Shown: positions 2,258 to 33,869 of the stretch, one piece after another
How the letters are laid out: every line of letters begins with the position of its first letter
How positions within the stretch are numbered: position 1 is the first letter of the stretch
IMG/VR virus record: IMGVR_UViG_3300021406_000030
Span: 1-34,518 of that record
DNA length: 34,518 nucleotides
Strand: one strand, 5' to 3'
Source: a virus
Made by a program: the position numbers and the translations under genes
Notes under the pieces: model-generated
What the model was told of the DNA's origin: nothing
Seen by the model: only the letters and a program-made list of their open reading frames with translations
The model's database searches: none

Positions 2258-5200
2258 CTACGGAATAAAGACGCTTAATGATGGTGCTCCCGGAACTAAC
2301 CCCCCACCGACAATCGTCCATGTTCCACCGCTGGTTGATGAACTTGTAAATCCTGCTTGACAGGCGACCACACTGATCGTTGTTGTCACACTGAGAGAAG
2401 AACTACCGCTGTAAGTCGAACTAGAGCAAGTCGCTGCAGGAGTCGTATTTCCCGCAGTTATCGTGTAGTGCATTGTGCATCCCGGTGTTGACGAAGTGAA
2501 GCCAACTGAGAGCGGAAGCGTGTAGGGCGGAACGTTGTAAGTGCCTGAGAAATTTGGTCCGGTCTGGAAAGGAGTAGCACAAGCGGGAGTCGCACCGCCT
2601 GCCGGAAGAATTGCTGTTGCAACCATGACCCAATCGAAAGCTGTAGTGGTGGTCATTGGCGTATTGGTGGCCGTCGCTGTCGTTTGCAGCCAGTATTCAG
2701 GCACAGCGGGCTGGTAGACGAACAACGGATCAAAGATGGTGTAGTTCGCTCCCGCCGTTGCTGTCGTGGTCGTGGTCACGCCGGGAATCGCATAGCCTTC
2801 CACCCATTCATTGTTGCCGGACGGAAGTTGAGGACTTCCGCTTGAGAGCGTACTCGATCCGCTCAGATTTGTGAGTGTCTGTGTAATTGGCCCGGTGTCC
2901 CAGCAAGTCGAAGCCGTTGAGGTGTTGGCAAGTACAAATACATGCAGGTTCGTCCATTCGTTCGATCCGCACGCACCGTTGAGTGTCACGGTTGGCGTCC
3001 CGGCTGCTGCATTGCAGGCGACCCAGATGTACGCCTTTGACGGATTTGCCGAGTCCGCACCCGCGATGACGAGGTTGTACGTGTTCACTCCATCTGTTGG
3101 GGCTCCTAGGCAACTATTGCCATCCGAAGCCAACACTACGACTGTGTCGTGAAGAAACACTTGTCCTGGAGCACAACTTGCGTTCGAGTTGCTCTCGGCG
3201 ATGCAGTGAGAATCGACTGCGATGGCCGACGTGATGTCAATGATGGACTGGCCTGTTGCACTTTGTAAAAATCCTGCAGCGGTAGCAATCGCTTGAATGT
3301 TTGTTGAGGAAGAAATATTCAGGGGAGTGGAATAAACCGCCGAACTCGTGGTCGGCGTCGTGCCATCAACTGTGTAATGAATTGTTGCACCTGCTGTTGC
3401 ATCCGTGATCGTTGCAGTCTGCGCACGGCCATAGTTGCCGCTCTGAGGCGAAATAACTGGAGTAGCTGCTACTGGTGTGCCCCCCGTAAAAGTCGCCGTC
3501 ACAGTACAAGCATTTGCAGGCATCGTTCCGGCATAAGTCGTAGTACCGGAGCCGCCGCAGCCTGTGACGCTGGTCAGGGTTGAGCCTCCGGTTGCCGTCA
3601 CCGAGCACGAGTAAGGCGCGCTTGCCGCGTAGTTGCCTGCGCATCCTGAAATGGTCCCCGTTCCGCTCCCAGAGGTAGCCGTCGTCAGCACGTAGGTCGT
3701 CACGCCGCCTACAAGCGGATGCGGATACGTGTAAGGGGTGTAAATATTCTTCCACACGCCCGGATTGCCCGACTGGATACACACAGAAAGCGTGTTCGTA
3801 TCGGTAGCGAAGTAACCGACGCCGTAAGATTCGCCACCCGGACTTGTGGCATACGGCCCACCCGGTCCTGCTGTACAACTCGTAGGTCGTGCGGAGAGAA
3901 GCCCTGTCCCTGTTCCTGCCGCGCCAGTAAAACTTCCGCTTTGTGCTGTTTGATCGTAATAGTAATCGCGATTGTTTTTGGTCACGAGATCTTGAATGAG
4001 GACATAATTTGCCGTTCCAACACTGTTGTTCCAGAGATAAACCGGCTCAAGATACTGCTGCGGCCATGCGATTGTGCCGGTTGCAGAATTCAACCGATTT
4101 GGGAAGACTTGGTTATTCATCAATTGCTGAGTCTGCCCGCGACCCAAACCATCGAGACATGGATAGCCTGTTGTAATTGTCGGCTGGTTTCCGTCCCATG
4201 CTGAACCTACGCCGTTAGGATTTCCTGTACTGGGATTTGTAACAGTGGTCCCGCAATATCCCCATCCGTTTGGAGGGTTGACTTCCGCCGCACTATCACC
4301 GCCATTTCTATCGGTAGCCGCTTCCCAAAATTGATAATAAGCAGCGTTCGCCAGCGTATTGCCCCAGACCATTGCAGGCCCGGCCTTCGATCCTGAAGCG
4401 CCTGAGCCGGTCTGCGACCCTCCCGGCCCGGTGATGTAGTTGTGGTACGCCTCGTAGCCTCGACAGCCTCGCCACGGCCCTCCAGACGACTTGGTGCCGT
4501 GCGTCTGGATGGGGATGTATTCATCGTTCATAGTGTTATAACGAGAGACGTAAAAGCCTGCACGGTAGCAGTCATTCGAAGCGCCGCCGTTGTAGACGTT
4601 GTTCTCGAAATAGATGGCTTGCGACGATCCCCATTGGGTTGGATTGTTGTAGGTGCCGTCACCCAGGGAGCCGGAAGTGTCCCCGATGTCGTTGAAGGCT
4701 CCCCAAGCATTAGTTCCCGGATTCGGACAAGTCGGACTCGGGAAGCCGTTGCAGGTCGATAGATCCCAGAGGTTGTGGTCGGCTACGCCGGTCGTGTTTC
4801 CGTAATTGATAACCCACGTTCCGCCCACGCCGCTTCCCGTGGTCGAGTTGACGTGGTTGTGGTCCCAGCGAATCTGCCCGTTCCCGCCGATGCCTATAAT
4901 CGGTTCCTGCCCGATGGTGACCGAGCCTTCTTCCCATGTGATCCCGGTTATGCGCAGAAGCGAAGTCGCAGAAGAATTGGTCGTCAGGTTCAGCATCGGC
5001 CCGAAGGTCGCGTAGTTCATTTCGATGATCGTGTTGTCGGCGGCTGCACAGGCGTAGCTCGATTGGCCCCCCGTGCCAGTGCAGGTCACCGTCGTGTTGC
5101 CTTGGATGATCAGGGTCGTCACTGCCGAGGGAACCGCATAACTGATGGTGCTTGTCCACGAGGCCGTACCCGAGGGGATGTTTACGGTCACTGTAGAGTT

Positions 5201-14510: not shown

Positions 14511-15605
14511 ATGAGCAACCTGCTTCAACAGGTGGCCCAGCCGCTTCAACAGATTACCACTTTTATTTACGGCCTTGTTGACCCAAGAACTGGACACGTT
14601 CGTTACGTTGGTAAATCTAACAAACCCACTGTTCGTTTGGGTCTTCATCTGATTCCATCTCAATTGAAAGAAACAACCCACAAAACCCGATGGTTGCGAC
14701 AACTTCTCGATGCCGGAGAAAGACCGCGTCTGATAATCCTTGAGAATGTCCCTAAAGTATCTTGGCCGGAATCGGAGAAGAAATGGATTTCTCACTATCG
14801 TAACCTTCCTAATTACCCGCCTCTTACTAACAGTACTGATGGAGGGGAAGGAGTCGAAGGGTACGTCTATTCTGAGGAGGAAAGAAAGAAGCGATCCGCT
14901 TCTCATCTTGGGCTCAAAATGCCTCCCGGTACCGGCAAGAAAATTAGTGAAGCGAATCGAGGTATACCTAAAAGCACTGAAGCGCGCATACATTTTTCTA
15001 GTGGACAAAAAAATCGTTGGCAAAATGCCTCTGATGAAGAGAAACAAAACATGCTTAAAAATCTTCGCAATCCGCAGAGCCACGAAAGAATAGAGCAAAG
15101 CAGGGTGCGCTCTAGAAATGCTCCTAGAATATCTAACACCACTTCTCAATATAGAAACGTCATTAGGGTTAAAGGGACAAAAGAATGGCAAAGACAGTGG
15201 CGCGCTGGATGCATAATTGACGGAAAACATATTTGCATCGGATTTTTTTATACCGAAGAGGAGGCTGCGAGAGCGAGAGATCGCTATGTACTCAAGCACA
15301 TCGGAGAACACGTTATTCTCAATTTTCCTCGTGCGGAATACGAATCCGATCCATGCAAAATAGTCGTCAGTAACGGGAAACACAGTCGCTCTCAAACGAT
15401 ATCCAAAAACAACGCTTCGGGATATAAAGGGGTAAGAAAGAACGGTAAAAATGGATGGACGGCGAGTATTAGTCATATGGGTACCCTCTATCGCCTCGGT
15501 ACACATCGAACTCGCGAGGATGCCGCTAGACGATGGGATCTTAAAGCCATCGAACTCTTCGGTGACTTGGCCGTAACCAATTTCCCTCGTGCGAGCTACG
15601 ATTGA
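14511..15605 (+). CDS. GIY-YIG homing endonuclease with NUMOD3 and two AP2 domains, 364 aa
   Basis: The only well-supported plus-strand gene; ATG 14511 follows CGGAGGT. Residues 18-100 form a GIY-YIG nuclease (IYG at 19-21, RYVG at 31-34, R42, E88 or so as metal ligand). Residues about 121-170 carry a NUMOD3 DNA-binding helix pattern (EERKKRSASHLG, KKISEANRG). AP2/ERF-type domains lie at about 212-273 (QWRAGCIIDGKHICIG, EEEAARARDRYV) and 302-359 (SGYKGVRKNGKNGWTASI, REDAARRWDLKAIELFG). Free-standing endonucleases of this kind cut a rival allele and spread themselves. It separates the adaptor gene from the small basic gene at 15618-15734, in the opposite orientation, as expected for a mobile intruder. 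Confidence 0.92.
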   Translation: MSNLLQQVAQPLQQITTFIYGLVDPRTGHVRYVGKSNKPTVRLGLHLIPSQLKETTHKTRWLRQLLDAGERPRLIILENVPKVSWPESEKKWISHYRNLPNYPPLTNSTDGGEGVEGYVYSEEERKKRSASHLGLKMPPGTGKKISEANRGIPKSTEARIHFSSGQKNRWQNASDEEKQNMLKNLRNPQSHERIEQSRVRSRNAPRISNTTSQYRNVIRVKGTKEWQRQWRAGCIIDGKHICIGFFYTEEEAARARDRYVLKHIGEHVILNFPRAEYESDPCKIVVSNGKHSRSQTISKNNASGYKGVRKNGKNGWTASISHMGTLYRLGTHRTREDAARRWDLKAIELFGDLAVTNFPRASYD

Positions 15606-18556: not shown

Positions 18557-19204
18557 CTAAGCTGTCTTCGTTATTCCGACAACCTTCAGTGATTGTTCTT
18601 TTTGAAGTTTTCTGCGCTGTGCAGTTTGCAAACGGCGCTTTTCCATCCACGCCGGATCTTGAGATTTCTTAACGTGATAGCTGTGATGCCTTTGCTTTTT
18701 ATGTTCAGCCGCTTTTTGATGTTGGCGCTTTACTATCTCCTGCAACCTATCCCAAAGAGCTATGCAAACTGAATACGGTTCCGTATCAAAGGCCGGAGTA
18801 AGTAAATCCGTAACTTCGTCGAGGAAGAATCTAGCAGACGTACTATCAATCTGCGCCTTTCTACGAGCCGTAAGAAACGGATAGATACAACCTAAAAATA
18901 CCCGTGACCGATCCCCACAAAGTCTCCACTGATGAACTTCAAAATTACTGCCCTTCTTACCGACGCCGTTTTTATAAAGCGTTACCTTGCCACCAAACCA
19001 ATCGCGTAAACGATACAAAAGTTCGGGGTCCTTCTGAGAAACGCAAACGGTATACGATTTATTCCCACCACCCTTAGTGGAACAAGTACCTTCTCCTTCA
19101 TAGATACCCGCAGCCCATGCAACATCAATTGCAGTGGGAGGTTTCGTGGCATCAAGCTCTTTGCCACCACGGTTTCCACGAACGATGTAGTAATTTCTCT
19201 TCAT
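18557..19204 (-). CDS. LAGLIDADG-family homing endonuclease, 215 aa
   Basis: Residues 30-40 hold a LAGLIDADG-type motif (WAAGIYEGEGT), with acidic residues E36/E38 in the position of the catalytic acids. It is followed by beta strands (YTVCVSQKDPELLYRLRDWFGG) typical of the fold's DNA-binding saddle. Only one motif is clear, so it should act as a homodimer. The C-terminal 60 residues are Lys/Arg/Gln-rich and probably an extra DNA-binding tail. ATG 19204 follows AGGAGAAA. It is free-standing between scaffold and major capsid genes, the usual hiding place beside a conserved gene. Confidence 0.85.
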   Translation of the reverse strand: MKRNYYIVRGNRGGKELDATKPPTAIDVAWAAGIYEGEGTCSTKGGGNKSYTVCVSQKDPELLYRLRDWFGGKVTLYKNGVGKKGSNFEVHQWRLCGDRSRVFLGCIYPFLTARRKAQIDSTSARFFLDEVTDLLTPAFDTEPYSVCIALWDRLQEIVKRQHQKAAEHKKQRHHSYHVKKSQDPAWMEKRRLQTAQRRKLQKEQSLKVVGITKTA

Positions 19205-21103: not shown

Positions 21104-23206
21104 CTACGACTCTTTTACGACTCCACGAGGTTCACCACCGGCTCCGCCCTTTTGCGACAGGCGAGGTGGCTTTTGCCCTGTTGGTGGACGTCCGCCTTTC
21201 CCTCCTCCACCCCCTTTACCGCCACCCTTACCACCCTGCTGGTCGCCACCTTCGAGGATGGAGGGATCGATGCCTAATTGCTTCAACTTAACGAGAGCTT
21301 TGGCCTTGGCAACAATCGCCATAACCTGCAAATCAACTTCCTCATTGAAGTACTGTTCTTTGAGCGTAGTGCCTTCTGTCTGTCCCCAGTTGCTCACTTC
21401 AAGATTCGACATCACAAAGGACCACGGAAGTGGCGCTCCACCACGCTTCAGTTGAAGCATCAACATCTGCCGCTGCATGGCGGTAACCTTGAGAAGCATA
21501 TTCGGAACGGACGTGAGACGAAGCTGTCTTACCAACCACTTTGCTCTGGTAAGAGAGTCGTACATCGACTTTGTTTCTGGGTAGGTGCCGTTGATTAACT
21601 CGTCCGGCAAATGGCTTGGAACCATGTCCTGCGGGTTGTAGTCGAAAACTTCACGCGCAATGTTATCTGGCCCCACGTACTCGATCAATCGCTGCGTATC
21701 GAACCACTGCGGGATCAGATACTTCATTCTTTCGCCGACACGTTTGTTCCCTTTTTCAATACGCATCGCAATGCCCTTGGCAATTGGTCCGATAGACTCA
21801 ATTTGCTTTGTGGCATCATCACTGTTCATATTGATTTTCAGATTGGCGAGATTACCAACATCGTTCAACCCCAACTGAGCGAGCATACCTTCCTTGAGGT
21901 ATTTGAGAAATGCCCAGTTCTCGCTTCCGACTGTGACTTCTTCCGGCAACAAGGACTGAAAGCTTTTCTTGGGCTCACCGCCTGCTAGGCCGAGACGTAC
22001 ATCCTCTTCGAATATGTCAAAGTGCTCAATCTTCGTACCACCGTTAGTATCGAGGTCATACCCCATCGGCGGGTTAAGCCTTGCGGTAAGGACCTGATCC
22101 ACCTTACGCTCGTGTTTGCGGATCGTTGTCTCGATTGAAGAAACATCTCCGACAAGGGAGCGTCCACCCGGCTCCCACGGTACGTCATCAACGGTGTACT
22201 GAATTACCGGGATGCGCGGGTCCCAATCGAAGGCAGGACCGTCGTACATCGGCCTGTCCAACCCGTTCGATGAAATGATAAGGCGAAGGTTTGGGTACAC
22301 CCGGCAGTCCTCTGCCATAGCCCTACGCATGGAAGGCTGGCCATTTCTCATTCCTCCAAAAATCTCTTGTCCTACGTAAGGAACCTTGTAAAACCACGAG
22401 GTCCCCGGATCTCCCATTGGCAGTTCAAACCCGGTATTGTTGATCCTCATATCCCGGATAAACGTCCAGCGGATCTCGGTGTAGAGGTTGCCAAATGATT
22501 TTCCTTGATCGCTGAGTTCACCATAGCGCCACGACGCCGCAAAGTCCTGCCGCTTTGCCTGAATCAGCGACTTGTAATTGTTCATGCCTACAGTCTGAAG
22601 TTTCCCTTGAAATAATGGAAAACGACCATGCGCTTCGGCAATTGGCATGTAGTCGTAGATCGTGCAACTGTAGCAATCTTGAATATCGTTTGTTCTTGCA
22701 GGTATTTGGGTAGGAACAACATCTAGTACCCCGAGAGCATCGAATGTCATTTCTCGTGGACCGTAACCATATTCTGTCGGCCTGATCTTCGGCCATAAAT
22801 AGCCGATTCCCATCACTGTGGCATATTGCAAGACCTTCAGAATCTGGATTGGAAAATCGCTTTCGAGGTAGACGGCTTTGCTCACCTTAGTGAGCATCTC
22901 GGCGGTCTTCTTGTAGGTTGGAACGTCAGAGCCATATGTGGCAATTTCACGGACTTCGGCCAAAGTTGTGCAAAATTTATTTACCGAATATCGTAATTCA
23001 TTTGTAACTAATAAAGACCTGCTTTTGTCTTTAAAAATCCCATCAAAAACACGCAGATTGGCGGCAAGGTTCTTGTAACTTTTTTGGCCCTCTAAGTAGC
23101 CTTCGCCCTCTTGGATCTGGGACTCAATCCACCCAATCTTGGAGCTTGGCGAGGACTCAAAACTTGGGGCCTGCCAGAGTACCGTTTCTAACGTATCAAG
23201 GAACAC
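21104..23206 (-). CDS. Portal protein, 700 aa
   Basis: The length and helix pattern fit the large P22-like portals that form the DNA-entry dodecamer and seat the terminase. The start is GTG 23206: an in-frame TGA lies four codons upstream, and an ATG four bases upstream leads only to a 4-codon frame. Recognisable segments include an N-terminal wing (LRYSVNKFCTTLAEVREIA), a central domain with PGTSWFYKVPYVGQEIFGG, and a stem/clip region near 420-500. The last 60 residues are a Gly/Lys-rich low-complexity tail (GGKGGGKGGGGGKGG). Residues 421-460 have a gapless half-identical match in the Tat mini-protein at 25489-25758. A dedicated promoter precedes it. Confidence 0.85.
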   Translation of the reverse strand: MFLDTLETVLWQAPSFESSPSSKIGWIESQIQEGEGYLEGQKSYKNLAANLRVFDGIFKDKSRSLLVTNELRYSVNKFCTTLAEVREIATYGSDVPTYKKTAEMLTKVSKAVYLESDFPIQILKVLQYATVMGIGYLWPKIRPTEYGYGPREMTFDALGVLDVVPTQIPARTNDIQDCYSCTIYDYMPIAEAHGRFPLFQGKLQTVGMNNYKSLIQAKRQDFAASWRYGELSDQGKSFGNLYTEIRWTFIRDMRINNTGFELPMGDPGTSWFYKVPYVGQEIFGGMRNGQPSMRRAMAEDCRVYPNLRLIISSNGLDRPMYDGPAFDWDPRIPVIQYTVDDVPWEPGGRSLVGDVSSIETTIRKHERKVDQVLTARLNPPMGYDLDTNGGTKIEHFDIFEEDVRLGLAGGEPKKSFQSLLPEEVTVGSENWAFLKYLKEGMLAQLGLNDVGNLANLKINMNSDDATKQIESIGPIAKGIAMRIEKGNKRVGERMKYLIPQWFDTQRLIEYVGPDNIAREVFDYNPQDMVPSHLPDELINGTYPETKSMYDSLTRAKWLVRQLRLTSVPNMLLKVTAMQRQMLMLQLKRGGAPLPWSFVMSNLEVSNWGQTEGTTLKEQYFNEEVDLQVMAIVAKAKALVKLKQLGIDPSILEGGDQQGGKGGGKGGGGGKGGRPPTGQKPPRLSQKGGAGGEPRGVVKES

Positions 23207-23290: not shown

Positions 23291-23323
23291 TATCAAAAAG
23301 GAAATGGCGAGCCGAAGCTCGCC
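23291..23323 (-). terminator. Intrinsic terminator with UUCG tetraloop at the end of array A
   Basis: On the minus strand, 7-bp arms (23317-23323 and 23306-23312) enclose a TTCG loop closed by C-G, the extra-stable cUUCGg form. The stem is followed by ATTTCCTTTTT. It defines the 3' end of the RHH/RAMP-like transcription unit and lies directly at the last pentamers of array A. Confidence 0.85.
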
Positions 23324-24041
23324 ACTCCCACCATTGCCAAACCTTACCATGCCAAGCCAAGCCCAGCTACAACTCACCTCATCCGAACTCGGCTCACCCG
23401 ACCTTTCCACACCAAACACTACCTTGTCCGTCCATACCGTACCGAAGCGAGCAGTACCGTGCCGCACCGCAGCTAGCCTTTCCATACCGGCCTTGCGGCC
23501 CGTACCTTACCAAGCCATGCCAAGCACTACCAAAGCGATCCCCACACTACCCCGCCGAACCGGGTCTCGCCTAATTACCCAACCAAGCCACGCCCAATCA
23601 CACCGCAACTCGCCATACAACACCCCACCTGAGCGAACCAAACCCTACCGGTCATAATGACCCGGACCTCACCGCACCTAGCCAGACATCACCCGATCCT
23701 GTCTGAGCCTTCCTCACCGCATCTCACCGTGGCGCACCCGGCCTGACCACACCTCGCCAATTCGGGCCTTATCGTGCCACGTCCCAACTTAACTAACCAC
23801 ACCATGACTCGCCCGACCAGACCGTATCCCGACACGCCAGAACGTAGCTCGCCCCGCCCGACCTAACCGGCGTTTCCGCCCGTTCCATACCACACCTAAC
23901 TATGCCAAACCACTCCAAGCCTACAGCGAACCGGACCGAACCAAAACCCGCCAAACCAAGGACTGCCGTTTGCCACACCCTACCATGCCTAACCTTAGCA
24001 GACCTCACCATGCCACACCTTGACAAGACTTGGCGTGGCAC
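23306..24041 (-). repeat. Array A: ~736-nt degenerate pentamer array (NNGGY on minus strand)
   Basis: This is the only stretch over 300 bases without a gene. On the plus strand it reads as RCCNN units such as ACCTT ACCAT GCCAA; on the minus strand as NNGGY. The first block (23306-23490) holds 37 units in one phase, and the block 23666-23870 holds 41 units in one phase with C at position 3 in 40, a purine at position 1 in 39 and C at position 2 in 26. Other blocks are offset by a few bases, so at least five phase slips occur. Adjacent units are nearly always different, which rules out a simple microsatellite. It runs from 2 nt after the RAMP-like gene's stop to the UUCG terminator, so it is probably the 3' part of that transcript. 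Confidence 0.9.
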
Positions 24042-24042
24042 G

Positions 24043-24669
24043 TCAACGCAATTCAACAACTGAAAACTTCGTGACCTGAAATCTTCCAAATGATGGCCGG
24101 AAATCTCCAACGCCGACAATGCGACCCGCATACGACAATGTTTCATGCAGTAGGCGATGATCTATGTATTCCGGAAGAAGAACTTGCAGGCTGACACTGC
24201 ACTTCCAACCAGTCAACATCGCTGGACGCACGCGCGTAATTCCACTTCGCTGAATCACGACACGACGACGATCAAGGTAATCTGGTTCCTTTGCACCGAG
24301 AGAGCAAAGCTCTCCGATAGTGGCAATACCAGCCTTGAATAGATCCATCGCAGACTTGCGCGGCGAACGTGGATCTTGTTTGAACTTCGCGGCATGGATC
24401 ACTGACTGCCGAAAATATTCGGATGGAATAGCTACACGGCCCTTCTCATCACGGTACATATAACTTTCAATGTTGTCGGTTTTCTTTGCAGCAGATCCCT
24501 TCTTCGAGTTGGCTTTCTCTTCAATCGCATCGCACGACCAGCGATGAAATAAAACTGGCGCTGTGCCCTCGATGCTGCACTCGATCATGTAAGGAGATTG
24601 AATCTCAACGTCCACTTTTGCATCATTGGACGCATTGGAAAGAGCAGTTACAACTGACTTCGTAGCCAT
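24043..24669 (-). CDS. RAMP/Cas7-like phage protein of unknown function, 208 aa
   Basis: Start chosen at ATG 24669, with GAGGTGAGG just upstream; ATG 24699 lies inside array B. N-terminal strand IECSIEGTAPVLFHRW (30-44), a helix IPSEYFRQSVIHAA (81-94), a basic strand RRRVVIQRSGITRVRP (134-149) and a C-terminal glycine loop GRIVGVGDFRPSFGRF (182-197). The order strand, IP-x4-R helix, and a G-rich G-x-G-D-x-R-x3-G-R-F end resembles RAMP/Cas7-type RNA-binding folds. It also resembles a group of uncharacterised phage proteins with a TAP-V/L-L-F/M-H motif (recollection, not searched). No catalytic residues are evident. Flanked on both sides by pentamer arrays and following an RHH gene, it is the likely binding partner of the array. 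Confidence 0.75.
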   Translation of the reverse strand: MATKSVVTALSNASNDAKVDVEIQSPYMIECSIEGTAPVLFHRWSCDAIEEKANSKKGSAAKKTDNIESYMYRDEKGRVAIPSEYFRQSVIHAAKFKQDPRSPRKSAMDLFKAGIATIGELCSLGAKEPDYLDRRRVVIQRSGITRVRPAMLTGWKCSVSLQVLLPEYIDHRLLHETLSYAGRIVGVGDFRPSFGRFQVTKFSVVELR

Positions 24670-24694
24670 ATTCCTCACCTCGTTTTGGATTTTT

Positions 24695-24779
24695 GCCATA
24701 CCTCACCACACCGTGGATTGCCTCACCTCGGCCCACCAGAACTCACCATGCCTTGCCAGTCCATGACACGGCCTGCCGA
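24695..24779 (-). repeat. Array B: 17 pentamers between RHH and RAMP-like genes
   Basis: Seventeen consecutive units in one phase, position 3 being C (plus strand) in 16. It fills the gap between the RHH stop (24781) and the RAMP-like gene almost exactly, in the same orientation as array A. In the transcript it is therefore the leader of the RAMP-like gene. Confidence 0.88.
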
Positions 24780-24780
24780 G

Positions 24781-24930
24781 TTATTTTGGAAGTTTTTGCC
24801 TTTGGGCTAATTCCTGAACAGCACGTTCAATCACGCCTGTCTTAGAAAGTCCCAACAACTCGGAGAGAGCGACGATCCATTTTAGAGTTCGCTCTGTCAT
24901 CCGATATGCAACAGAAACTCTATTTGCCAT
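24781..24930 (-). CDS. Ribbon-helix-helix (CopG/MetJ-type) regulator, 49 aa
   Basis: ATG 24930 to TAA 24781. The sequence has the RHH layout: N-terminal beta strand NRVSVAYRM, first helix TERTLKWIVALSELL, turn GLSK, second helix TGVIERAVQELAQRQ. RHH dimers bind DNA with the paired strands and often repress their own operon. A perfect inverted repeat lies in the promoter just upstream, so autoregulation is likely. The gene begins only about 6 nt after the predicted -10 box and has no ribosome site, suggesting a leaderless message. It is first in the unit RHH, array B, RAMP-like gene, array A. Confidence 0.85.
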   Translation of the reverse strand: MANRVSVAYRMTERTLKWIVALSELLGLSKTGVIERAVQELAQRQKLPK

Positions 24931-24936
24931 AGATAT

Positions 24937-24965
24937 AATGTATAGAGTTTTTCTATACACGTCAA
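24937..24965 (-). promoter_or_regulatory. Promoter with RHH operator
   Basis: On the minus strand TTGACG (24960-24965) and TACATT (24937-24942) are 17 nt apart. TGTATAGA at 24939-24946 and TCTATACA at 24952-24959 form a perfect 8-bp inverted repeat with a 5-nt spacer, filling the gap between the boxes. A bound RHH dimer pair would block polymerase. The plus strand also contains TATAAT at 24934-24939. Confidence 0.75.
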
Positions 24966-24996
24966 GCGCAAAATGCGTTATTATAGGGCATGTCGT

Positions 24997-25071
24997 TTGG
25001 TGATATAAGGCGTGGTGTGGCTGGGTAAGGTTCGGCGCGGCTAGCAGAGGTGCGGTGAGGTAGGAGGAGCG
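24997..25071 (+). repeat. Array C: pentamer array in opposite orientation
   Basis: About 15 in-phase units reading NNGGY on the plus strand (for example AAGGC GTGGT GTGGC). It lies beyond the RHH promoter and points away from it, so plus-strand transcription from that region would give the same G-rich repeat as arrays A and B. Confidence 0.85.
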
Positions 25072-25102
25072 GTTTTAGATTCGTCTATGCCGCTCTATTT
25101 TA
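25067..25102 (+). terminator. Terminator-like hairpin at the end of array C
   Basis: GAGCGG (25067-25072) pairs with CCGCTC (25090-25095) and is followed on the plus strand by TATTTTA. As for array A, the hairpin's first arm is built from the last array units. It sits just before the stop codon of the minus-strand gene at 25104. Confidence 0.55.
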
Positions 25103-25103
25103 A

Positions 25104-25496
25104 TCAATGCCCTTGTTCATAACCTTCGCTGTGTAAATATTCTTCCCTGACTGTCTTCGACTTGTCATTGTCGAAGTGCTTGTCAAGGAAATATCTCATC
25201 GCATCACGATTGTAGGCATTTCTTGCGTTTGCCATTAAGTGTCTAATGTGTGATCGCAGTTCCGACCGCCACTGACCTTCAATCAGATTACGCTCTTCGT
25301 CCTTGATGCTCTCTTTAAAGGCATTGTATTTGCGGAGCCGATCCGACCAAACTTCGGCGTCATGAGCCGAAGCACAAATAATTTTCTCAAAACCGGGAGG
25401 TGCAGGAAACCTCTCTGGGAGACCCATACGGATCTCTCCCGATGTGCCGTTGTAGTAGTAGCAGATTTTTTTGCTTAATTGAGCGTTGTTAAGCAT
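25104..25496 (-). CDS. Hypothetical phage protein, 130 aa
   Basis: Charged, mostly helical protein with a short beta start (KICYYYNGTSGEIRMGLP), a central PPGFEKIICASAHDAEVWSDRLR segment and long helices (RSELRSHIRHLMANARNAYNRDAMRYFLDKHF). The start overlaps the Tat mini-protein gene by 8 nt, so it belongs to the same operon. It is the last gene before the array cassette. No family function is known to me. Confidence 0.65.
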   Translation of the reverse strand: MLNNAQLSKKICYYYNGTSGEIRMGLPERFPAPPGFEKIICASAHDAEVWSDRLRKYNAFKESIKDEERNLIEGQWRSELRSHIRHLMANARNAYNRDAMRYFLDKHFDNDKSKTVREEYLHSEGYEQGH

Positions 25497-27127: not shown

Positions 27128-27580
27128 TTACTCGCCAACTGCGCCGACACCCGCTAGCGCTTTCCGGGCGTACTTCCGACGTCCTCTTGTTGAGGTATCG
27201 GCCTCCTCGGTTGGCTCTGCTTCCTCGGTGACCTCTTCATTGTTCGCTTTTATCTGTGCCCTAACAGCGTCCAAGTTTTCTTCACGGGGGATGACGATTG
27301 TTTCGATGATCTCAGACTTTTCAACCTGTTCTGGAGGAAGAGAATCCAATGATCTCTTTACTTCTGACGGCAAGGTGATCGGGACTTCCATCTCAATATG
27401 AACTGTTCGAACGGCAAAGCAGTCCAGTTCAATTTTTACCTTCCCTTGAAATCCGCCACTGTATCCGTCTTCTTTCCTAAGACTGCAATCCCGACGCAGA
27501 AATTTGCGCACTTCACCCACAACATACTCGATAGGTTCCCATCCGCTCAACGGATCAGTGAAATTCTTGACATCTGGCAT
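27128..27580 (-). CDS. Hypothetical protein, 150 aa
   Basis: ATG 27580 follows AAAGGAGAC. A short helix (EPIEYVVGEVRKFLRR) is followed by beta strands (QGKVKIELDCFAVRTVHIEMEVPI, split) and a long acidic, disordered region (EEVTEEAEPTEEADTS) ending in a basic tail (RGRRKYARKAL). Array D lies in its leader. No family recognised. Confidence 0.6.
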   Translation of the reverse strand: MPDVKNFTDPLSGWEPIEYVVGEVRKFLRRDCSLRKEDGYSGGFQGKVKIELDCFAVRTVHIEMEVPITLPSEVKRSLDSLPPEQVEKSEIIETIVIPREENLDAVRAQIKANNEEVTEEAEPTEEADTSTRGRRKYARKALAGVGAVGE

Positions 27581-27628
27581 TTACGTCTCCTTTTTCGACA
27601 TTTTGATTCACTGAGAGTCCCCGGAAGG

Positions 27629-27718
27629 ACCTCGCCAAACCTTACCGCACCACACCGAACCTGACCAAGCTCTACCCGACCGCACCACGCCGAACCGGGC
27701 CTAACCTCACCTTACATT
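27629..27718 (-). repeat. Array D: 18 pentamers in a gene leader
   Basis: Eighteen units in one phase (plus strand ACCTC GCCAA ACCTT and so on), position 3 being C in 16. It is in the same orientation as arrays A and B but 2.6 kb from the cassette, between the mini-gene at 27740 and the start at 27580. No terminator follows it. Confidence 0.88.
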
Positions 27719-32497: not shown

Positions 32498-32844
32498 CTT
32501 TCTCCTTTTACTATCAACTTTACTCGACGCATAGCTGCATCGATCTGGCTGAGAATATCTTCACGAAGATTGACTGATTGCGCTAGAAATGGACGTGGCC
32601 TTGAAACCAAATCAGCTACCGCTCCTTGTACCGCCCATCGCGCATGTTTATAGGAACCACGGGTGTCAGAGATCACCTGTCCGCTATTGTTTGTGAAGTA
32701 GACGTTGTAGGCATACGGTTGATTGACGCCGATCCGCGTCACCCATCCCACAACTTCATTTGTTTTCTCATTGATGTACGCAGCAAAATATACAAACCCG
32801 GAAACTTTCCCTAATGGGAACATGTTGATCCACTTGTAGTTCAT
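32494..32844 (-). CDS. Hypothetical protein, 116 aa
   Basis: Start chosen at ATG 32844 because it overlaps the glycosyltransferase stop as ATGA; a longer in-frame start exists. Beta strands with aromatics (FVYFAAYINEKTNEVVGWV, AYNVYFTNNSG) are followed by a helix (DILSQIDAAMRRVKLIVKG). No family or motif recognised. Confidence 0.55.
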   Translation of the reverse strand: MNYKWINMFPLGKVSGFVYFAAYINEKTNEVVGWVTRIGVNQPYAYNVYFTNNSGQVISDTRGSYKHARWAVQGAVADLVSRPRPFLAQSVNLREDILSQIDAAMRRVKLIVKGER

Positions 32845-33869
32845 GCAAGCCACTCTTTCCACGCTGCAAGCCCGACACGTACATATTTATCGAGCACAGC
32901 CTTTCCATCTGCTGCCGCGCGTGGGTCATTCAAGAGAGCCCGCCCAACTCGGGCAACATCAAGCGCATCATCAACCGAAGCCTTCCAATGTTCTGGTGCC
33001 CAGTCAATCGCCTCAGATACAACTGATGGAACGCCTTCGGCGATGCCGTCAGATGTACACATGTTGAAACTTTCGCTATATGAAGGTTGCAATAACAAGT
33101 GCATTGTCGCAACTCTTCGCCTAAAAACCGGCCATGGTGCCCACGGATTTTCCTTCAACTCTACGCCGGGCAAATCGCGATACATTGCTCGAATAGAACT
33201 CAGTACAGTTTGTCCCCCACCTTCCGCTCGTCCACCACAGATCCAGAGTTCCATGGGATCACGCATAGCTCTCGCAATCTCCAGCGCCGCAGCAGCGCCG
33301 GTCATCATATTCTTCAGTGGACGGATAGCACCAAACATGCCAATCCTCAGAGTGCCACCACGATAAGGTGGACGACCTTGCGCGCTAAGGTAATCGAGAT
33401 AGTACAGATTAGGCAGAAATTTACAATCGACTTGAAAACACTCTTTGATCCACTCACAGAAGCGAACGGAATTACCACCAATATTGAAATTAAAAGTGTT
33501 CCGTTCAATCGCCATATAATCTTTAATAAGATCCACGGCATTGGTATCAGCCTGAAGGAAACCGACGTTTGAGTGACAGTTGATCGCCAGCTTCACTTCT
33601 GGATAATCTCTGGAAAAATTGCAGACGATTTGCGTAGGAATCCATGGTGCAGAAACCACGATATGGGTGACATCTGGAAATTTCTTGGGAATGCCCGCTA
33701 GCTCCACGGGTTGAACGAATGGGGCAACGGTCGCTCTGACGCCATTCGCTCTCAACACCTTGGCAGTATTGGCAGCAGCTACGCCCAAACCGATGTGAGA
33801 GATACCAGCGTGTGCAGCGAAATTCTTATAACAGAGAATCACATGGATGGGCGTAGGCGGAGTATTCAT
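32841..33869 (-). CDS. GT4-like glycosyltransferase, 342 aa
   Basis: The C-terminal half has the GT-B donor-binding pattern: RIGMFGAIRPLKN at about 175-187, ELWICGGRAEGGG near 207-219, and QPSYSESFNM...IAEGVPSVVS near 261-285. The N-terminal half (IHVILCYKNFAAH, AGISHIGLGVAAANTAKVLRA) is the acceptor domain. Members transfer sugars from activated donors. In a phage it could decorate host surface glycans to block rivals, modify virion proteins, or modify phage DNA; none is shown here. ATG 33869 with AAGGAAA upstream. Confidence 0.8.
   Translation of the reverse strand: MNTPPTPIHVILCYKNFAAHAGISHIGLGVAAANTAKVLRANGVRATVAPFVQPVELAGIPKKFPDVTHIVVSAPWIPTQIVCNFSRDYPEVKLAINCHSNVGFLQADTNAVDLIKDYMAIERNTFNFNIGGNSVRFCEWIKECFQVDCKFLPNLYYLDYLSAQGRPPYRGGTLRIGMFGAIRPLKNMMTGAAAALEIARAMRDPMELWICGGRAEGGGQTVLSSIRAMYRDLPGVELKENPWAPWPVFRRRVATMHLLLQPSYSESFNMCTSDGIAEGVPSVVSEAIDWAPEHWKASVDDALDVARVGRALLNDPRAAADGKAVLDKYVRVGLAAWKEWLA

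Follow-up and report, generated by a model that had tools for sequence, protein, structure and literature searches.

VIPR consists of the RAMP protein Vipr and of vrRNAs in which GGY alternates with NN, and it recognizes DNA through the NN pairs, one base being skipped per repeat (main text of PMC13142463, on which all statements about described VIPR systems are based here). The vrRNAs comprise 9–16 repeats and a structured 3′ tail, and Vipr is a minimal RAMP protein with an RRM core, a G-loop, and a thumb. For the VIPR of Escherichia phage SUSP1, RNA expression, formation of an RNP, binding of the vrRNA by Vipr, DNA binding, and repression were demonstrated by experiment, and VIPR was proposed to be an ancestor-like relative of CRISPR (PMC13142463). 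The system is newly described, and this one preprint was the only account of it in the literature searched. A different kind of conflict is known from T-even phages, where marker exclusion involves free-standing homing endonucleases (SegF, SegG, and MobE) that lie beside their targets (PMC2988022).

The DNA analyzed here (the window) is an IMG/VR virus contig of 34.5 kb (IMGVR_UViG_3300021406_000030, positions 1–34,518), the minus strand of which carries terminase, P22-like portal, and head genes. In this soil phage, a cassette comprising a gene for a RAMP-like protein and arrays of NNGGY repeats sits among these head and packaging genes (Table 1). An initial annotation had considered this cassette self-contained and without any described counterpart. 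The second claim was overtaken by the 2026 preprint (PMC13142463): judged by homology and predicted fold, the RAMP-like protein is Vipr, and the cassette is a VIPR system, not a new kind of system. Nor is the cassette self-contained, because one array (array D) lies 2.5 kb outside of it, and the guides match sibling alleles of the neighboring genes. It is very likely that the window encodes a phage VIPR with guides aimed at siblings, and we propose that it is a linked and allele-specific means of silencing competing phages.

Table 1. Features of the VIPR locus and of the genes related to its guides (positions in the window).
Feature	Position	Strand	Description
Portal gene	21104..23206	−	Own allele of the gene that the 3′ part of array A targets in siblings
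Terminal UUCG hairpin and T run	23300..23329	−	Terminator or tail of the last vrRNA; by structure
Array A	23308..24045	−	738 nt, ~147 NNGGY repeats, several putative vrRNA guide segments
Punctuating hairpin 3, array A	23486..23503	−	ACGGGCC-GCAA-GGCCGGT
Punctuating hairpin 2, array A	23647..23665	−	CCGGGTCA-TTA-TGACCGGT
Punctuating hairpin 1, array A	23866..23883	−	ACGGGCG-GAAA-CGCCGGT
Vipr (RAMP/Cas7-like)	24043..24669	−	208 aa; G-loop motif VGVGDFRPSFGRF
Array B	24693..24780	−	17–18 decayed NNGGY repeats between RHH gene and vipr
Ribbon-helix-helix (RHH)-like protein	24781..24930	−	49 aa; candidate accessory protein or regulator
Array C	24995..25064	+	Single putative vrRNA, 14 repeats
Tail hairpin, array C	25067..25095	+	Inverted repeat and fold
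Gene with no assigned function	25104..25496	−	Own allele of the gene that array C targets in siblings
Gene with no assigned function	27128..27580	−	Own allele of the gene that array D targets in siblings
Tail hairpin, array D	27612..27633	−	GAGGTCC...GGACTCTC
Array D	27629..27715	−	Putative outlying vrRNA, 17 repeats, 2.5 kb beyond the cassette

Vipr and its accessory genes

The window Vipr matched phrog_4652 (E 1.4e-18), the same PHROG into which SUSP1 Vipr falls. The two proteins were 25% identical in a BLASTP comparison (E 1e-9), and when a profile of 30 Vipr sequences was compared with the PDB, the sole match was 36pp, “SUSP1 Vipr protein” (E 1.5e-11). The motif GVGDFRPxFGRF is conserved in the Vipr homologs. 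The AF2 model (pLDDT 85.8) was found by structure comparison to match Csm3 and type VII Cas7 with Z of 12–13 over residues 24–208, and the predicted fold is that of a Cas7/Csm3-like RAMP protein. The likeness to class 1 CRISPR thus comprises the full-length RAMP fold and, by analogy, RNA-guided recognition; in contrast, the cassette lacks CRISPR repeats, Cas1/Cas2, and other cas genes, and its code is non-contiguous. Membership in class 1 CRISPR–Cas was rejected, as CRISPR-type repeats are missing from the cassette and neither Vipr nor the RHH protein was matched by PADLOC. A megablast search of the cassette region against phages returned zero matches.

The RAMP-like gene proposed initially is present, but its start is most likely at position 24669 rather than at 24699, because most homologs align from about there and because a GAGGTGAGG ribosome-binding site precedes it. 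With this start, array B ends just ahead of the vipr ribosome-binding site, which modifies the initial statement that the arrays end exactly at gene or terminator borders. The initial annotation had also suggested that the RAMP-like protein binds an RNA or DNA element made by the repeat. Binding of such an RNA has been shown for the homologous system of SUSP1 (main text of PMC13142463), and, by homology, the same may apply to the window protein, which belongs to the same family.

Compared with SUSP1, which carries a type II VIPR (KT454805, 27.5–29.5 kb), the window shares the phrog_4652 family and the G-loop, NNGGY tracts that flank vipr on its strand, the 1-nt skip, the encoding by a phage, and competitors as targets. 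The two systems differ in that SUSP1 has four separate vrRNAs of 12–16 repeats, a pseudoknotted tail, vap1, and a Vipr of only 25% identity, whereas the window has one tract of ~147 repeats with hairpins, an RHH protein, and outlying arrays. Furthermore, SUSP1 guides mostly match a satellite phage, whereas window guides match sibling alleles of the adjacent gene. The RHH partner, the hairpin-punctuated long array, the outlying guides, and, above all, the neighbor-allele rule detailed below are absent from the main text of the preprint but may be partly known.

The RHH gene of the initial annotation was recovered as an ORF coding for an RHH-like protein that matched phrog_3887, a transcriptional regulator (E 1.5e-5); its match to Pfam PSK_trans_fac was sub-threshold only. 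In the related loci compared, RHH homologs upstream of vipr were found only in L002, L003, L004, L005, and L160. A small zinc-ribbon gene takes this place in L006 (3839–3982) and L007 (3822–3965), the Viprs of which are 78–79% identical to that of the window despite the different accessory gene, which indicates that accessory genes swap fast. The window resembles loci of HicB/Arc-like phage RHH regulators in that a small RHH protein lies beside an inverted-repeat promoter region (inverted repeats at 24915–24950 and 24939–24959) but differs in that no toxin partner is visible and that the RHH protein is found in the nearest VIPR relatives only. Of the autoregulated promoter proposed initially, only these inverted repeats were confirmed, and the sigma-70 promoter scan gave no scores clearly above those of shuffled sequences.

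NNGGY arrays and their hairpins

The arrays were located using a five-state NNGGY HMM re-estimated on the window alone. Conservation was 89% for G at position 3, 74% for G at position 4, and 91% for Y at position 5; the NN positions were mixed. The three strand-specific arrays initially recognized within 1.8 kb (A, B, and C) were all retrieved, and the minus-strand UUCG terminator and the hairpin of array C were also present where expected (Table 1). Array D and the three conserved hairpins of array A had been absent from the initial annotation. Tandem Repeats Finder detected fragments of the arrays only, because the repeat copies are too degenerate. Arrays C and D are single tracts followed by hairpins; array A is a long tract interrupted by three hairpins and closed by a fourth. 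Array B and some stretches of array A show decayed GGY positions. The UUCG terminator is convincing by structure, although the terminator scan was not clearly above shuffles.

The hairpins of array A follow the pattern NCG[GGNN-loop-NNCC]GGY; in the family, most of the loops are GNRA. Terminal hairpins resembling that of array A also end the arrays of L002, L006, and L007. In relatives, 26 of the 73 instances of the hairpin motif were located inside arrays on the guide strand, which account for 0.6% of all bases. With the two inner pairs left unspecified, 11 of 12 distinct instances in arrays were complementary at these positions, with four different inner pairs, compared with 5 of 32 outside arrays. 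We interpret the hairpins of array A as putative tails of consecutive vrRNAs or as marks for their processing. In another relative (L041, 3360–3894), the element that separates the arrays, GGATACTTTGTT.ATTT, is conserved but does not form a hairpin and takes the place of the GNRA hairpin. Hammerhead ribozymes between the vrRNAs were not seen: a search of Rfam at gathering thresholds gave zero matches, both for the window and for six loci related to it.

Arrays accompany the vipr gene. The initial annotation had linked the two in a single stretch of DNA, and this association extended to all 80 viral relatives fetched by means of Vipr (81/81 including the window itself), almost always with the arrays on the vipr strand and no more than a few hundred bases away; none of the dinucleotide-shuffled versions of the same 81 loci yielded an array with the same HMM. 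On contigs of bacterial genomes containing vipr, arrays were present in 30 of 32 loci. Homologs of the RAMP-like gene lacking nearby arrays, which the initial annotation had named as a finding that would speak against the cassette, were thus rare. The corresponding number was 3 of 79 for sibling loci of the same phage group fetched by means of the portal protein. In the fetched DNA, nearly all of these portal loci were without vipr, and only one of the three array-bearing ones had it. When the whole records of 44 relatives were searched, vipr was found in one portal sibling and in the eight records that had been obtained through vipr.

The window-trained HMM also found arrays beside the homologous vipr of other phages. 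In the first 50 kb of SUSP1, it identified four tracts, one upstream and three downstream of vipr, which agrees with the layout determined by RNA sequencing (main text of PMC13142463). Two VIPR copies, the arrays of which agree in locus coordinates and length, lie ~100 kb apart on a contig of the cyanobacterium Stenomitos rutilans (L244 and L245). A VIPR within the genome of Thermomonas flagellata SYSU G04041 (L238) was also observed, and this strain could possibly serve as a bench model for the clade. In L028, a second protein of similar size, RAMP-like by eye, is encoded upstream of vipr (2284–2898, plus strand), with arrays on both sides.

Guide targets and a probable neighbor-allele rule

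Guides were decoded as lists of NN and searched for in all loci after masking of the arrays, assuming skips of 0, 1, 2, or 3 bases or the reversed order. For 12-unit windows of the window guides matching at least 20 of 24 positions, 135 matches were obtained with a skip of 1, as opposed to 0–1 for skips of 0, 2, and 3 and for the reversed order. The 1-nt skip code is supported in the window guides by these counts, which amount to an independent confirmation, from sequence alone, of the VIPR code in a distant clade.

The best match was that of array D to a sibling (L100/G016), comprising 12 consecutive dinucleotides (24/24). Array C matched sibling alleles of the gene at 25104–25496 with 18–19/20 in more than 20 siblings, the skipped base coinciding with codon position 3 in the siblings examined. 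Array A contains two segments with imperfect matches: the 3′ one fits the portal genes of siblings at their ribosome site and start (18/20), and the 5′ one fits the vipr genes of siblings at their 3′ end (17/20); an exact scan of IMG/VR with 10 units of the vipr-end target gave zero matches. Neither array B nor the middle of array A (most of a 42-repeat segment) had a target at 17/20 above the control level. The matching was reciprocal in one case, as an array of L002 matches the window portal gene at ~22597 with 10 consecutive NN (20/20), and array A of the window matches the portal start and the vipr end of L002.

For arrays C and D, the segments of array A, and the array of L002, each target found was the sibling version of the gene adjoining the array. 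This relationship was retested with whole genomes, for which full or nearly full records of 16 siblings (up to 138.5 kb) were fetched to avoid bias from short loci. At skip 1, 57 guide–target pairs were obtained. Many of them share a guide, and about six guides are independent (three from the window, namely, C, D, and the 3′ segment of A; one from L002; and two from G043). The target gene had a homolog in the guide's own genome for 53 of the pairs, and in 52 of these 53, the homolog was at most 300 bp (usually less than 150) from the array, the one exception being due to a truncated target frame. In contrast, seven controls yielded 21 pairs (0–8 per control), of which 7 had a homolog, none of them adjacent. 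Two outlying vrRNA-like arrays lie far from vipr in G043 (138.5 kb; L177, 10091–10171, and L180, 17122–17197). The first of these, located at 70.1 kb, obeys the rule: it is 3 bp from a gene, alleles of which in three distant siblings match 18–20/20.

The relationship was replicated in L028/L227, an unrelated phage compared with L228 and L229, where all five matches were adjacent with gaps of 0–18 bp. In a set composed mostly of Phycisphaerales loci, 29 of 33 matches were adjacent, and two guides (L241 and L247) matched genes without a homolog in the DNA fetched around those guides. In a sibling-free test of ~220 guides, 21 of 36 strong self matches lay no more than 600 bp away, versus 22 of 125 for controls (Fisher p 4e-6). 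We regard it as probable that these observations reflect a general neighbor-allele rule, by which a vrRNA gene is placed beside its owner's tolerant allele and spells the alleles of siblings, constituting a linked poison/tolerance unit akin to marker exclusion by homing endonucleases but guided by RNA, with long arrays cut or delimited by the conserved CGGG..CCGG hairpins. Such a rule would also allow target prediction, as it would suffice to check the sibling allele of the next gene.

Self-sparing and alternative readings

At matched codons, the guides agreed with siblings at 18–20/20 and mostly at only 13–17/20 with the own allele. The own allele was never the best match, and sibling alleles matched better than self in 44 of 69 cases for array C and in 23 of 27 for array D. 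For the portal guides, self was intermediate, and own alleles equaled or surpassed most of the distant siblings, so that discrimination by these guides is modest. Self-sparing as a universal rule is therefore weakened: it is clear in the case of C and D but slight in that of the portal guides. What is claimed here is that the guides spell alleles of siblings, not that they discriminate strongly.

The residual match to self leaves room for a different reading, in which the VIPR is a means of self-regulation, its guides timing the expression of the phage's own neighboring genes and the matches to siblings being a by-product of shared ancestry. The guides indeed adjoin genes, and the own allele retains 14–17/20 matches. 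However, shared ancestry would have to accommodate that the own allele is never the best one, that most sibling alleles fit C and D better, and that perfect matches (24/24 or 20/20) are confined to siblings, which makes self-regulation unlikely. Still less credence is given to a structural or packaging element, RNA or DNA, which is bound by the RAMP-like protein with no sequence-specific targeting. The location of the cassette would suit such a function, but siblings with the same head genes mostly lack both arrays and vipr, and the NN positions correspond to sites in protein-coding sequence, the skipped base falling on the wobble position; this reading is very improbable. That the matches are coincidental, the arrays having no targeting role and being no more than neutral relics or satellite-like repeats, as the decay of GGY in B and parts of A and the segments without a target might suggest, is scarcely credible, since it is already contradicted by the target statistics (skip 1, 135 versus 0–1; adjacency, 52/53 versus 0/7 in controls; replication in unrelated phages).

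Under the preferred reading, silencing of siblings, Vipr would, by homology to SUSP1, assemble on the NNGGY-repeat vrRNAs, and each NN pair, with one base skipped per repeat, would spell the DNA target. During co-infection, the phage would repress genes of sibling competitors, its own linked allele being only partly matched. Linkage of the guide to a tolerant allele would protect recombinants against self-poisoning and would allow both to be spread as a unit, by analogy to free-standing homing endonucleases in marker exclusion. As in marker exclusion, the element adjoins the resistant allele and would act on the sibling allele of the neighboring gene in mixed infection. The window system differs in that it would be RNA-guided and probably repressive, with no nuclease in the cassette. 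If so, related phages may shut off each other's genes via VIPR during co-infection, which would link an RNA-guided conflict to the old puzzle of allele exclusion between co-infecting phages. A place beside the own version of the target may also be where guides originate and where they remain harmless to their owner.

The window phage seems to carry conventional homing elements as well, since genes resembling those for LAGLIDADG (18557–19204, minus strand) and GIY-YIG (14511–15605, plus strand) homing endonucleases lie among the structural genes, both slightly under the Pfam cut-off. In addition, a glycosyltransferase gene (32841–33869, minus strand) is located ~3 kb past terminase; its Pfam match is GT4-conflict, a family 4 glycosyltransferase of conflict systems.
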